Positions 38,086-50,171 of a DNA stretch of 64,000 nt are shown here, piece by piece (the first letter of the stretch is position 1; each line of letters opens with the position of its first letter). The position numbers and the translations under genes were made by a program. The notes below the pieces were generated by a model that saw only the letters and a list, made by a program, of their open reading frames with translations, did not search any database and was not told the origin of the DNA. The stretch is from an uncultured Candidatus Entotheonella sp. (lineage in GTDB: Bacteria; Tectomicrobia; Entotheonellia; Entotheonellales; Entotheonellaceae), in contig OX639990.1 of NCBI GenBank assembly GCA_951828535.1, forward strand, positions 3,211,300 through 3,275,299, read 5' to 3'.

Positions 38086-40350
38086 ATGCAGAATGGTTCA
38101 ACGCCTGTCGTCAAAGACCTGGTCCTGATCGGCGGCGGTCACAGCCACGTCACGGTTCTCAAACAGTTCGGCATGCGGCCGGTGCCCGGCGTTCGCCTCA
38201 CGCTCATCTGCCGAGACGTCCACACGCCCTATTCCGGCATGCTGCCGGGCTTTGTCGCCGGCCACTACGATTACGACGACATTCACATCGACCTGGGACC
38301 GCTGGCGCGCTTTGCCGGCGCTCGGTTGTACCATGACGAGGTGATTGGCCTTGACCCGGTCAACAGGCGTATTCGATGCGGCAATCGGCCGGACGTGTCC
38401 TACGACGTGCTGTCCATCAATACCGGCTCCACGCCCGACTTCTCGCAGGTGCCGGGCGCAGACAAGTTCGTGGTACCGGTGAAGCCCATTCATAATTTCC
38501 TGTCCCGCTGGGAGCGTTTGGTGCCCCGCGTATTGGCGGCCCGCGGCGTGGCGCGCATCGGCGTTGTCGGCGCCGGTGCCGGCGGCGTCGAGCTGACGCT
38601 GGCGATGCAGTGCCGTCTGGGGCAATTGTGCCAGGAAGCCGGGTACCAAGCACAACTGACCTTTCACCTTTTCAGCCGCACCGAAACCGTCCTGCCAACC
38701 CACAACAGACGAGTACAAGCAACATTTCAGCAGCTTCTGGTGGCCCGCGGCGTGCACGTTCATGCGCCGTGCCGCGTGACCCGGCTGTGGGAAAATGGCC
38801 TCGGTTGCGAGGACGGCAGCACGCATGAGCTCGAAGAAATACTCTGGGTCACCAACGCCGCGGCGCCCTGCTGGCCGGCAGATGCCGGGCTTGCGGTGGA
38901 TGCGCACGGCTTCATCCGCCTCAATGACGCTTTGCAATCGGTGTCGCACGCCGACATCTTTGCCGCCGGCGACGTGGCCGCAGTTGAGACCCACCCACGC
39001 GAGAAGGCCGGGGTGTTTGCGGTGCGCCAGGGCCCGCCGCTCGCCCGCAATCTGCGCCTCGTCCTGCTGGGACAACCGCCCCAGCCCTTTACGCCTCAGA
39101 AGCAGTGGCTCAGCCTCATCAGCACGGGGGACAAATACGCCGTGGCATCGCGCGGCAAGTGGTTCTTGAAGGGCCGCTTGATCTGGCGCTGGAAGGACTG
39201 GATCGACCGCCGCTTTATGGACAGGTTCAACGTGCTGCCGGAGATGCGAGAAACACCTGCCGTCGATCTGGCGCCGGGGCTGGCGGACGCCGACGCGATG
39301 CGGGAAATCTCCGCCATGGCGATGCGCTGCGGTGGCTGCGGAGCCAAGGTTGGCGCGACCACTCTCGACCGCGCCCTGGCGAAATTGCAGCCGGTGCAGC
39401 GCACCGATGTCGTCGTCGGCCTGGACCACCCCGATGACGCCGCAGTGGTCGAGGTGCCGTCCCAGAAAGTGATGGTGCACACGGTTGATTTCTTCCGCGC
39501 TCTCGTCGACGACCCCTATATCTTCGGCAAGATCGCTGCCCAGCACAGCCTGGGGGACATCTTCGCCATGGGCGCCGAAGGCCAGACGGCCCTCGCCATC
39601 GCCACCGTCCCCTATGGCCTGGAGCAAAAGACTGAGGACACCCTGTCGCAGATGCTGCAAGGCGCGGAGGAAGTACTGCACGACGCCGGGGTGGCGCTGG
39701 TCGGCGGGCACACCAGTGAAGGCGCCGAACTGTCATTGGGCTTCGCCATCAACGGACTTGCCGAACGGGCCAGCCTGCTACGCAAGGGCGGCATGCAGCC
39801 CGGCGACCGCCTCATCCTCACCAAGCCTTTGGGCACCGGCACACTCTTCGCTGCCGAAATGCGGCTCAAGGCCAAAGGGCGCTGGGTCAGCGCTGCCCTG
39901 GCTTCAATGCTGCTATCGAACCGTACGGCGGCGGCGTGCCTGCGGCGGCACGGTGTCACGGCCTGTACTGACGTGACCGGCTTTGGCCTCCTCGGTCACT
40001 TGGTTGAAATGACCCGCGCGTCGCAAGTCGGCGCGTGCCTTGACCTGAGCCAGTTGCCCGTCCTCGACGGCGCTGAGGAAACCGTCGCAGCGGGGATTTT
40101 CAGCACCCTGCAGCCGCAGAACGTGCGCCTGCGCCGCGCCATTCGCGACCTCGATGCCGCCGCGCAGGCGCCCCGTTACCCGTTGCTTTTCGATCCCCAG
40201 ACCGCCGGCGGCCTGTTGGCCAGCGTCCCGCCAAACCAAGCCACCGCGTGTCTTGCCGAGTTGCAGGCTCTAGGATACGAGTACGCGGCGGTCATCGGCA
40301 CGGTTGAGCAACATTCCGATCACTTGGAACCCATTGCGTTGTTGATCTGA
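38086..40350 (+). CDS. selD: NDH-2-like FAD oxidoreductase fused to selenide, water dikinase (SelD)
   Basis: This 754-residue fusion has an N-terminal pyridine nucleotide-disulfide oxidoreductase-like part with DLVLIGGGHSHVTVLKQF (FAD), GVVGAGAGGVELTLAM (second dinucleotide site) and ADIFAAGDVAAVE (C-terminal FAD contact). From about residue 405 it is SelD: CGGCGAKVGATTLDRAL with catalytic Cys and Lys three apart, DDAAVV, and VGGHTSEGAELSLGFAING. SelD makes selenophosphate from selenide and ATP for tRNA-Sec or 2-selenouridine. The fusion is known in cyanobacteria and some proteobacteria. The probable selenoprotein gene at 43311-44840 lies 3 kb away. selA, selB and selC are not in the window. 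Confidence 0.93.
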   Translation: MQNGSTPVVKDLVLIGGGHSHVTVLKQFGMRPVPGVRLTLICRDVHTPYSGMLPGFVAGHYDYDDIHIDLGPLARFAGARLYHDEVIGLDPVNRRIRCGNRPDVSYDVLSINTGSTPDFSQVPGADKFVVPVKPIHNFLSRWERLVPRVLAARGVARIGVVGAGAGGVELTLAMQCRLGQLCQEAGYQAQLTFHLFSRTETVLPTHNRRVQATFQQLLVARGVHVHAPCRVTRLWENGLGCEDGSTHELEEILWVTNAAAPCWPADAGLAVDAHGFIRLNDALQSVSHADIFAAGDVAAVETHPREKAGVFAVRQGPPLARNLRLVLLGQPPQPFTPQKQWLSLISTGDKYAVASRGKWFLKGRLIWRWKDWIDRRFMDRFNVLPEMRETPAVDLAPGLADADAMREISAMAMRCGGCGAKVGATTLDRALAKLQPVQRTDVVVGLDHPDDAAVVEVPSQKVMVHTVDFFRALVDDPYIFGKIAAQHSLGDIFAMGAEGQTALAIATVPYGLEQKTEDTLSQMLQGAEEVLHDAGVALVGGHTSEGAELSLGFAINGLAERASLLRKGGMQPGDRLILTKPLGTGTLFAAEMRLKAKGRWVSAALASMLLSNRTAAACLRRHGVTACTDVTGFGLLGHLVEMTRASQVGACLDLSQLPVLDGAEETVAAGIFSTLQPQNVRLRRAIRDLDAAAQAPRYPLLFDPQTAGGLLASVPPNQATACLAELQALGYEYAAVIGTVEQHSDHLEPIALLI

Positions 40351-43310: not shown

Positions 43311-44840
43311 TTAGTGCGAAATGAGAATCGTGTGCTCCCCGACCGTCGTGGTGATTTCCAGGTCCCCGTCGACGATCGACCATTGCTCCGAGGGCTGGTC
43401 GTCGATCAGAACCCGAACATCGCGCCCGATGTTTCGCACCCGGAACGACGTCCCGCTGCCTGCCGCGCGGGGCAGCCCGCCATCCGTAGACACGATGAGC
43501 GTGCGCCGGCTGGTATCGTACCACGCCTGCGACAAGCAGACATTGGGAAAATCCACCCCATAAACCGTCGGCTCGATGAACTTCCTCAGGTTGGGCTCAT
43601 GGTACACGTGCCAGAACGCCCCCGGGCCGCCGGCCTCGTGCACTGCAATGCCGGCATTATATTGCCCGCGGGGATACCACTCGTTCAAGCCGAAGCCCCA
43701 GGTGAATTCGCCGCTTTCGCGGTCCCAAGTGGGCTCGTAGTTGGCCTCCGCGTAAGCTTTCAGCTTGGCGTAAATGGCGTCCTCGCCGAACTCACGCGCC
43801 AGCGTCAGGCCGCGAATGGTGCCGGAGGGCTCGCCCTTCAGGGTGGTGTAGTCCACCGATGCCTCCCGGAGGGGCTCAAGACTGCGCCAGCCCAGGAACT
43901 CGGCGGCTCCATCGAACAGCCGCCGCGCCTCGGCGGGTTTCTGCCCGATCAGTTCGTGCGACAATAGCAGGTGACCACTCGCCTTGGTCATGTGATGGTA
44001 AGCCACTAGCGGGTCATAATACAACGTCGAGCAGTCGGTGGCCTTGCCCTGAATTGCTCCCAGCCCATACAACTCCTTGGCGTGCTCCCACCAACTGTGG
44101 AATACCCGGTGCAGGTCGCTTCCGTAAAGCATGTCGTGCAGCCTCAGACCGAGGCCGGCTCCGGCCAGTCACTGTGGCCAGATCTTGGTGTTTTCTCACT
44201 GACAGCCTTCCGCGACCTTGGACCACTGATTCGCCAGATACTCGGCAATGCCGGAATGTATCCACGTGAAGGTGTTCTCGCCGTCCCGCACCATGTCGAA
44301 GGGCCGGTTCCATTTTTCGTCGCCGGAGACGTACAGGTGAAAACCCAGCATCATCAGGAACCAGCCCTTGAAGAACAGGTTGCCGTCGGCGCCGATCGGG
44401 TCCATCTGCAGGCCCCACGGCTCGATGCCGTTGGCCGTCCAGCCCGGCACGTCGTACTGCCCGCGCAGGTGCTTGGGCATCAACGTCTCGTGCCAGCCCT
44501 CTGGATAGCTGTCGCGCCGGGGATCGGCGCCGATCTGATCCAACCAATCCCTGGCGGCGTGGTAGCCGGTGTGGCGGTAGACCAGTTCGTCCAGAATCGT
44601 GCTGTACACCTCGCGCCAAGCCGGTGTGGTATCGGCCATCAGCACCACGGCGTGGCTGGACTCTCGGAGGTCCATGCGCGCCCACGAGGCGGTGGGCTCG
44701 CGGGAATACGAGTCCCAATGCGGATGGGCCTCGCCGTCCTTGTCCCAATTGTCCGGCGTGGTTGCTTTCCGGTAGAGGTAGCGCAGCCAGCCGCGACTCC
44801 TTTCGGACGTGGCGGCGTAACCGCGTACGGTTTTTGACAT
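43311..44840 (-). CDS. Linalool dehydratase/isomerase-like protein with two in-frame TGA codons (probable selenoprotein)
   Basis: Read through, this is a 509-residue protein. ATG 44840 has AAGGAGAT upstream. Codons 215 (TGA, 44196-44198) and 224 (TGA, 44169-44171) interrupt one continuous frame; both halves belong to the same LinD (Ldi) fold. The local sequence GCQ-U-ENTKIWPQ-U-LAGAGLGLRLHDMLYG aligns with LinD [20 protein letters not shown], where both Cys are catalytic and nine apart. LFFKGWFLMMLGF matches the LinD KGHLNLMYGL helix, with Trp for the LinD active-site His. Hairpins follow both TGAs. LinD itself interconverts linalool, geraniol and myrcene; the substrate here is unknown. If TGA were a plain stop, only an inactive 214-residue half would be made. 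Confidence 0.8.
44139..44157 (-). promoter_or_regulatory. Candidate bacterial SECIS hairpin for Sec224
   Basis: Nucleotides 15-33 after the second UGA form a 7 bp stem CGGCCUC/GAGGCUG closing the loop GGUCU at nucleotides 22-26. In E. coli fdhF the GGU CUG codons and the GGUCU loop lie at the same distance from its UGA. The loop is the SelB-binding element. Confidence 0.75.
44160..44182 (-). promoter_or_regulatory. Candidate bacterial SECIS hairpin for Sec215
   Basis: In the mRNA, nucleotides 17-39 after the first UGA (U = 1) form an 8 bp stem UCUGGCCA/UGGCCGGA (one U-G pair) with the 7-nt loop CAGUGAC. The loop contains GU and, within UGA, the second recoded codon. Confidence 0.55.
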
Positions 44841-44852
44841 GTTTTATCTCCT

Positions 44853-45200
44853 TAAAGCGGTTTGCGTTTGTATGTGTGGCCTATCTACGCGTCATGTTGT
44901 GATGCGCCCCGTCGAGATCGTTCGTGACCGCGGCGGTTGGTTTTGGGGGTTGGGTTCTTGCGGTTCTGGCGCACCTTTTCGGCCAGGAATTTGTTGTCGG
45001 GGCTCGAACCCCCCTTGCCCCCTTATCAGGGGGGGAATTTCCAAAAACCGCAAGGGCTCAGGGACAATGCCTCCAAGGCCCCCCTGACAAGGGGGGTTGG
45101 GGGGTTACGCCAAGGCAGGCGCAGGGCCGCTCGGGTGCACGTCTTTGTGACGCCTTACACTGCTGCGGATATCCCATATAGGCATGCGAAAACCGCTTTA
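44853..45200. repeat. Intergenic region bounded by TAAAGCGGTTT inverted repeats
   Basis: The gap between the LinD-like and CaiB-like genes is 381 bp. TAAAGCGGTTT at 44853-44863 is exactly inverted at 45190-45200. Inside lies the C-rich element at 45007-45106. No gene is seen. The left arm abuts the ribosome site of the LinD-like gene, so insertion of a small element into its upstream region is possible. Confidence 0.4.
45007..45106. repeat. 100 bp MITE-like element with 28 bp inverted ends
   Basis: The left end AACCCCCCTTGCCCCCTTAT continues CAGGGGGG, and the right end is its inverted partner with 24 of 28 positions matching. Elements of this C/G-run type are dispersed in many proteobacterial genomes. 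No ORF is present. Confidence 0.6.
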
Positions 45201-49697: not shown

Positions 49698-50171
49698 TTA
49701 ATTTCCGCTCAGGATCTGCGGCCAATTCACGTCAGCCTTGGCGATGTATCCGGGGATGTCCTTCTCCCAAATCCTCTGCACCTTGAGGCTGAAGTTCAGG
49801 TAGAGCTTGTCGTCGACAATTTTCCAAGCATCCGGGTCGATCTTGGCGGTATAACCCTGGCTCACTGCGTAAGCGCAGTAGCCGCCGTATTGGGGCGCAT
49901 ACTTCTCCGGGTCGCCCGCGAACAATTCCATGTTCTCCGCGCTGGCAAAGTACCAGGTGGCACCCATCCACTCGTAGCTGTGGGCGCCTTTGCCCTTCAC
50001 CGGCTCGCCCTGAACGAAATAGGCCACCGGATCGTGCCCCTTGATCGCCCACCCCAGCAGGGTGGCATTAACCGGCTGGACGGCCATGGCTGTGGCCGGC
50101 ACCAGTATGGCGACAACGATCAGAATCCCAAGCACTGCCAGCCAACCGTTCCTCTTTCTTAGCAGTGTCAT
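49698..50171 (-). CDS. Exported YHS-domain protein
   Basis: This 157-residue protein has an N-terminal signal peptide or anchor (LAVLGILIVVAILVPATAMA, residues 11-30). The YHS domain follows: AIKGHDPVAYFVQGEPVKG, then WMGATWYFASAENMELFAGDPEKYAPQYGGYCAYAV. Single periplasmic YHS proteins often bind metals or act near copper or haem systems. LYLNFSLKVQRIWEKDIPGYI at the C-terminus is shared by this subfamily. Confidence 0.85.
   Translation of the reverse strand: MTLLRKRNGWLAVLGILIVVAILVPATAMAVQPVNATLLGWAIKGHDPVAYFVQGEPVKGKGAHSYEWMGATWYFASAENMELFAGDPEKYAPQYGGYCAYAVSQGYTAKIDPDAWKIVDDKLYLNFSLKVQRIWEKDIPGYIAKADVNWPQILSGN

Follow-up and report, generated by a model that had tools for sequence, protein, structure and literature searches.

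A gene on the reverse strand of the analysed window, a 64,000-nucleotide stretch of contig OX639990.1 from a bacterium of sponge-symbiont type, Ca. Entotheonella, very probably encodes an enzyme of the linalool dehydratase/isomerase (Ldi) family with selenocysteine (Sec) at both catalytic positions, codons 215 and 224. The relatives of this gene are a new selenoprotein family with predicted Sec, distributed over at least three bacterial phyla. Both components, selenoproteins and the Ldi family, are already known. Known selenoproteins are for the most part redox or metal enzymes, many of them thioredoxin-like, and the interest of the present case lies in selenium that would replace the two catalytic cysteines in a barrel of lyase/isomerase type, a fold of non-redox type. 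In the literature searched, linalool dehydratase and selenoprotein are nowhere mentioned jointly. The preliminary description of this DNA had named no described selenoprotein in the Ldi family, and none was found in PMC13188914, a 2026 catalogue that covers 119 families of prokaryotic selenoproteins and contains no Ldi protein, or in NCBIfam (June 2026), in which no model matches the Ldi-like protein. In the mechanism proposed here, both UGA codons would be read as Sec by the SelA/SelB/tRNA-Sec/SelD system of the genome, a separate hairpin immediately 3′ of each UGA would direct its own recoding, the hairpin of UGA215 being a less typical SECIS with the second UGA in its loop, and full read-through would yield one ~57 kDa enzyme of Ldi fold. 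Computation shows the single frame and its conservation, the Sec machinery, the two hairpins, the fold and the match to the catalytic residues of LinD, while actual Sec insertion, chemistry and substrate are what we infer.

Reading frame, family and fold

Two ORFs on the reverse strand, 44840-44196 and 44132-43311, had been described as sharing one frame with only two TGA codons between them, and these coordinates proved exact. The two TGAs, nine codons apart, are the only interruptions of a single frame of 509 codons, with no other stop before the TAA at 43313-43311 (Table 1). Only the first of the two ORFs is preceded by a Shine-Dalgarno sequence, and a ribosome-binding site of its own was not evident for the downstream ORF starting at 44132. 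When the gene was compared with three double-TGA homologues and with the paralogue in its own genome, most differences, before as well as after the TGAs, were found at third codon positions. Ldi selenoprotein genes are likely to carry annotation as two truncated fragments.

The read-through protein scored above the Pfam gathering cut-off for Ldi (PF18566; Table 1), and other members of the same branch scored 41-62. Single-sequence comparison with PDB chains placed both TGA codons on Cys171 and Cys180 of LinD (chain 7ad2), and this alignment confirmed the numbering of the catalytic cysteines, nine apart, which the preliminary description had given. When a 26-member profile was compared with LinD (E 7e-24), the TGA columns stayed unchanged on the two Cys. 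The LinD catalytic pair, C-E-x7-C at 171/180, thus aligns column for column with codons 215/224, and LinD carries Cys at both catalytic positions, whereas Sec is predicted at both in the window protein. An AlphaFold model of the read-through protein, for which 25 aligned sequences served as input, reached a pLDDT of 86.5 and a pTM of 0.89; its best fold match was to the LinD structures (VIA-align Z 33.5, rmsd 2.5 A, 327 residues), and the next folds were (alpha/alpha) barrels with Z of about 19. The (alpha,alpha)6-barrel common to the window protein and LinD/Ldi of Castellaniella defragrans (PDB 5g1u, 5hlr; PF18566) comprises residues 8-419 here. The window protein differs from LinD in sequence, with an identity of about 16%, and in an extra C-terminal beta domain beyond the LinD match. 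At the position of LinD His129, a substrate-pocket residue, the alignment places Trp160 of the window protein, a point of difference from linalool dehydratase/isomerase proper.

Table 1. Features of the Ldi-family locus and the SelD gene, in window coordinates.
Feature	Position	Strand	Details
Predicted selenoprotein gene, Ldi family, 509 codons	43311..44840	-	ATG 44840 to TAA 43311; predicted Sec at 215 and 224
TGA codon 215, LinD Cys171 position	44196..44198	-	Family column: Cys n=22 (16 Cys/TGA + 6 Cys/Cys), TGA n=6
TGA codon 224, LinD Cys180 position	44169..44171	-	Family column: TGA n=22, Cys n=6
Shine-Dalgarno AAGGAG, 5′ of ATG 44840	44848..44853	-	Sequence
Candidate SECIS for codon 215, UCUGGCCA-CAGUGAC-UGGCCGGA	44160..44182	-	Loop 21 nt after UGA215, contains UGA224
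SECIS stem-loop for codon 224, GGCCUC-GGUCU-GAGGCU	44140..44156	-	Loop 18 nt after UGA; covariation
Stretch matching Pfam Ldi PF18566, residues 145-374	43719..44408	-	45.4 bits, cut-off 26.1
C-terminal beta domain, residues 425-508	43317..43568	-	Outside LinD-aligned part of AlphaFold model
SelD fused to N-terminal oxidoreductase; supplies activated selenium	38086..40350	+	TIGR00476 316 bits (cut-off 125); TIGR03169 497 bits

Cysteine and TGA among the relatives

Among the 28 family genes, including the window gene, columns 215/224 were TGA/TGA in six, Cys/TGA in 16 and Cys/Cys in six, with no TAA or TAG at either column; the relatives therefore carry Cys or TGA in exactly the columns to which the preliminary description had pointed. 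The six distinct TGA/TGA genes belong to two genomes of one Ca. Entotheonella genus and to Chloroflexota (SAR202, Dehalococcoidia records and G590). Cys/TGA was found in 16 distinct genes from alphaproteobacterial records, from two genomes in the class of G042, and as a paralogue in the genome of the window and its sister, and Cys/Cys in Streptomyces, in two genomes in the class of G042 and in three in the class of G045. In a tree that left out the frame-broken double-TGA copy of G001, the double-TGA genes other than L049 formed one supported group (100/99).

The Cys/Cys relatives (Streptomyces NZ_CP108633.1; L050 and L051 in the G042 class; L089-L091 in the G045 class) resemble the window protein in their length of about 500 residues, in 37-48% identity and in the same HCENTK(I/V)WPxC motif, but unlike the window gene they have Cys at both columns and a broken SECIS stem. 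The paralogue in the window's own genome (G000:C1:899763-901265) is 62% identical; its codon 224 is again predicted to be Sec and is followed by the same SECIS, whereas its codon 215 is Cys and the first hairpin is missing. As the family naturally includes Cys/Cys, predicted Cys/Sec and predicted Sec/Sec members, the advantage of Sec over Cys would be testable within one scaffold.

Stops in frame, and the frame changes in the G001 double-TGA copy, would also be expected of a degraded or mis-assembled gene in which nonsense mutation or read errors had produced the TGAs. However, identical TGAs occupy both catalytic columns in several phyla and assemblies, never replaced by TAA or TAG, and the differences downstream of them lie mostly at third codon positions; the conserved TGA columns together with the covariation of the SECIS (see below) refute this explanation for practical purposes. 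Read errors in particular, by which the preliminary description had allowed that its reading could fall, are ruled out because the same TGAs recur in independent assemblies.

The sister-genome double-TGA copy (L025 5001-6461, OY282375.1, Ca. Entotheonella sp.; G001:C1:1725377-1726840) is split among three frames and misses about six residues right after the motif, and is either a decaying gene or the product of assembly indels. Three to four Cys/Sec Ldi paralogues apiece were found in the alphaproteobacterial genomes G044, G046 and G047 (L057-L068), which suggests an expansion of the Ldi family.

RNA hairpins and selenocysteine machinery

The hairpin after UGA224 has the features of a classical bacterial SECIS. 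In each of the 22 Sec genes, a 6-bp stem bears a GGUCU loop (GGUUU once) 18 nt after UGA224. In 20 of these 22 sequences, pairing was standard in 120/120 cells and nine double-sided compensatory changes were found (C-G/G-C/U-A and C-G/U-A); no shuffle reached the observed pairing or covariation score, and sliding the partner destroyed the pairing. The six Cys/Cys genes retain only 2-4 of the 6 pairs. The hairpin of the window gene, with its GGUCU loop, 6-7 bp, 18 nt spacing and -11.2 kcal/mol, agrees with the bacterial SECIS criteria of a 3-9 nt loop with an early G, a stem of 4-16 bp, a spacing of 16-37 nt and an MFE <= -7.5 (PMC13188914), and in longer stretches rival folds compete with it (z -0.15 over 39 nt). 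The SECIS of E. coli fdhF has the same GGUCU loop at the same 18-nt distance from its UGA, but differs in stem sequence and host protein. Compensation in the stem alters the protein in two genes, with Leu to Phe opposite Arg to Lys; L052 and L053 are divergent Cys/Sec members in which the stem change comes with Leu to Phe (GFGLKL for GLGLRL).

The hairpin after UGA215 (UCUGGCCA/UGGCCGGA) has 8 bp and a 7-nt loop at a distance of 21 nt, with a folding energy of -12.0 kcal/mol and a z of -2.6. Of the six TGA215 genes, five have all 8 pairs and one a shifted 5-bp version, and only 2-6 of the 8 pairs remain in the Cys215 genes, so that the hairpin is limited to TGA215 genes. The model of PMC13188914 has a G at one of the first two positions of the loop, which most genes lack here. 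We call this element a candidate SECIS because the second UGA lies in its loop and the early G is mostly absent. An Rfam scan of the locus returned no match; the eukaryotic model SECIS_1 did not match either, but it was silent on the controls too and is therefore uninformative.

The absence of the canonical G near the loop start would also fit a gene in which only codon 224 is Sec and UGA215 is a stop or is otherwise read, the full-length protein being rare and the first UGA regulatory, and two UGAs 27 nt apart would be expected to reduce the yield. Such an arrangement is nevertheless quite improbable, given that column 215 is Cys or TGA in 28/28 members, that a dedicated 8-bp hairpin is confined to TGA215 genes, that the double-TGA form recurs in Chloroflexota and Ca. 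Entotheonella, and that double-Sec proteins are already known (PMC13188914). Sec in place of both catalytic cysteines, as the preliminary description had proposed, is supported computationally by the Cys/TGA columns, by the Sec machinery and by recurrence across assemblies. The gene would then be a compact case of closely spaced Sec codons, each with a separate RNA signal.

The machinery for this recoding is present. In the window's genome, selA and selB are adjacent (G000:C1:3374799-3378091; 606 and 363 bits, both above cut-off) and tRNA-Sec has the anticodon UCA; selA/selB and selC are far from the Ldi gene, and the SelD fusion, with a pyridine-nucleotide oxidoreductase at its N-terminus, is about 3 kb from it. 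All of selA, selB and tRNA-Sec, on which the preliminary description had let its proposal depend, are thus found in the same genome, and SelD within the window as well. SelA was detected in 12/12 tested genomes with TGA-bearing copies, and SelB above cut-off in 8/9 tested genomes, the exception being a fragmentary SAR202 MAG. SelA presence was also considered as a separator of Sec from Cys members and was rejected, since several Cys genomes have SelA.

Read-through of TGA in the Ldi frame might also come about if the organism had reassigned UGA, for instance to Trp, Cys or Gly. This is exceedingly improbable: four genes neighbouring the Ldi gene terminate with TGA, the Ldi gene has TGA at just two columns, and the Sec system is complete in the genome.

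Predicted chemistry and genomic context

Because the predicted Sec pair replaces the catalytic Cys171/Cys180 of LinD, lyase, hydratase or isomerase chemistry appears most likely, and we favour, with moderate confidence, a cofactor-free reaction of this type on an allylic-alcohol or alkene substrate. Sec surpasses Cys as a nucleophile and as a leaving group and exists in ionised form at neutral pH, and the selenolates would act as a stronger nucleophile, leaving group or base. The active-site cysteines of LinD serve in acid/base catalysis and possibly as a nucleophile forming a thioterpene (review PMC6013536). Since Sec occupies the Cys180 position in every Sec member, the distribution suggests that the Sec at this position performs the selenium-dependent step and that the Cys171 position is tuned between Cys and Sec. 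Identity to LinD is low and Trp stands where LinD has His129; for these reasons the reaction probably departs from that of LinD in its substrate and in some catalytic steps, and linalool itself is probably not the substrate. Such an enzyme is potentially a useful biocatalyst for alkenes and allylic alcohols.

The main rival to lyase/hydratase chemistry is a selenolate redox enzyme or switch with a diselenide or selenenylsulfide between 215 and 224, which is compatible with two Sec; redox enzymes make up most known selenoproteins (PMC13188914), and LinD is oxygen-sensitive and requires a reductant (PMC6013536). We consider a redox role unlikely, however: the fold and the positions of the residue pair belong to a cofactor-free lyase/isomerase, a thioredoxin-like fold and a CxxU/UxxC motif are absent, and the motif is unchanged in the Cys/Cys relatives. 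The most far-reaching reading, a non-redox, cofactor-free hydratase/lyase/isomerase with a catalytic Sec pair whose codons, 27 nt apart, are served by two SECIS elements in series, the second codon in the loop of the first element, is given a little better than an even chance.

Except for the synteny shared with the second Ca. Entotheonella genome, the gene neighbourhoods of the family contain no convincing recurring partner, and the context therefore reveals no substrate or pathway. Elsewhere in the window, a small YHS-domain protein with Cys is encoded at 49698-50171 on the reverse strand; a YHS-domain selenoprotein family appears in the 2026 catalogue (PMC13188914).
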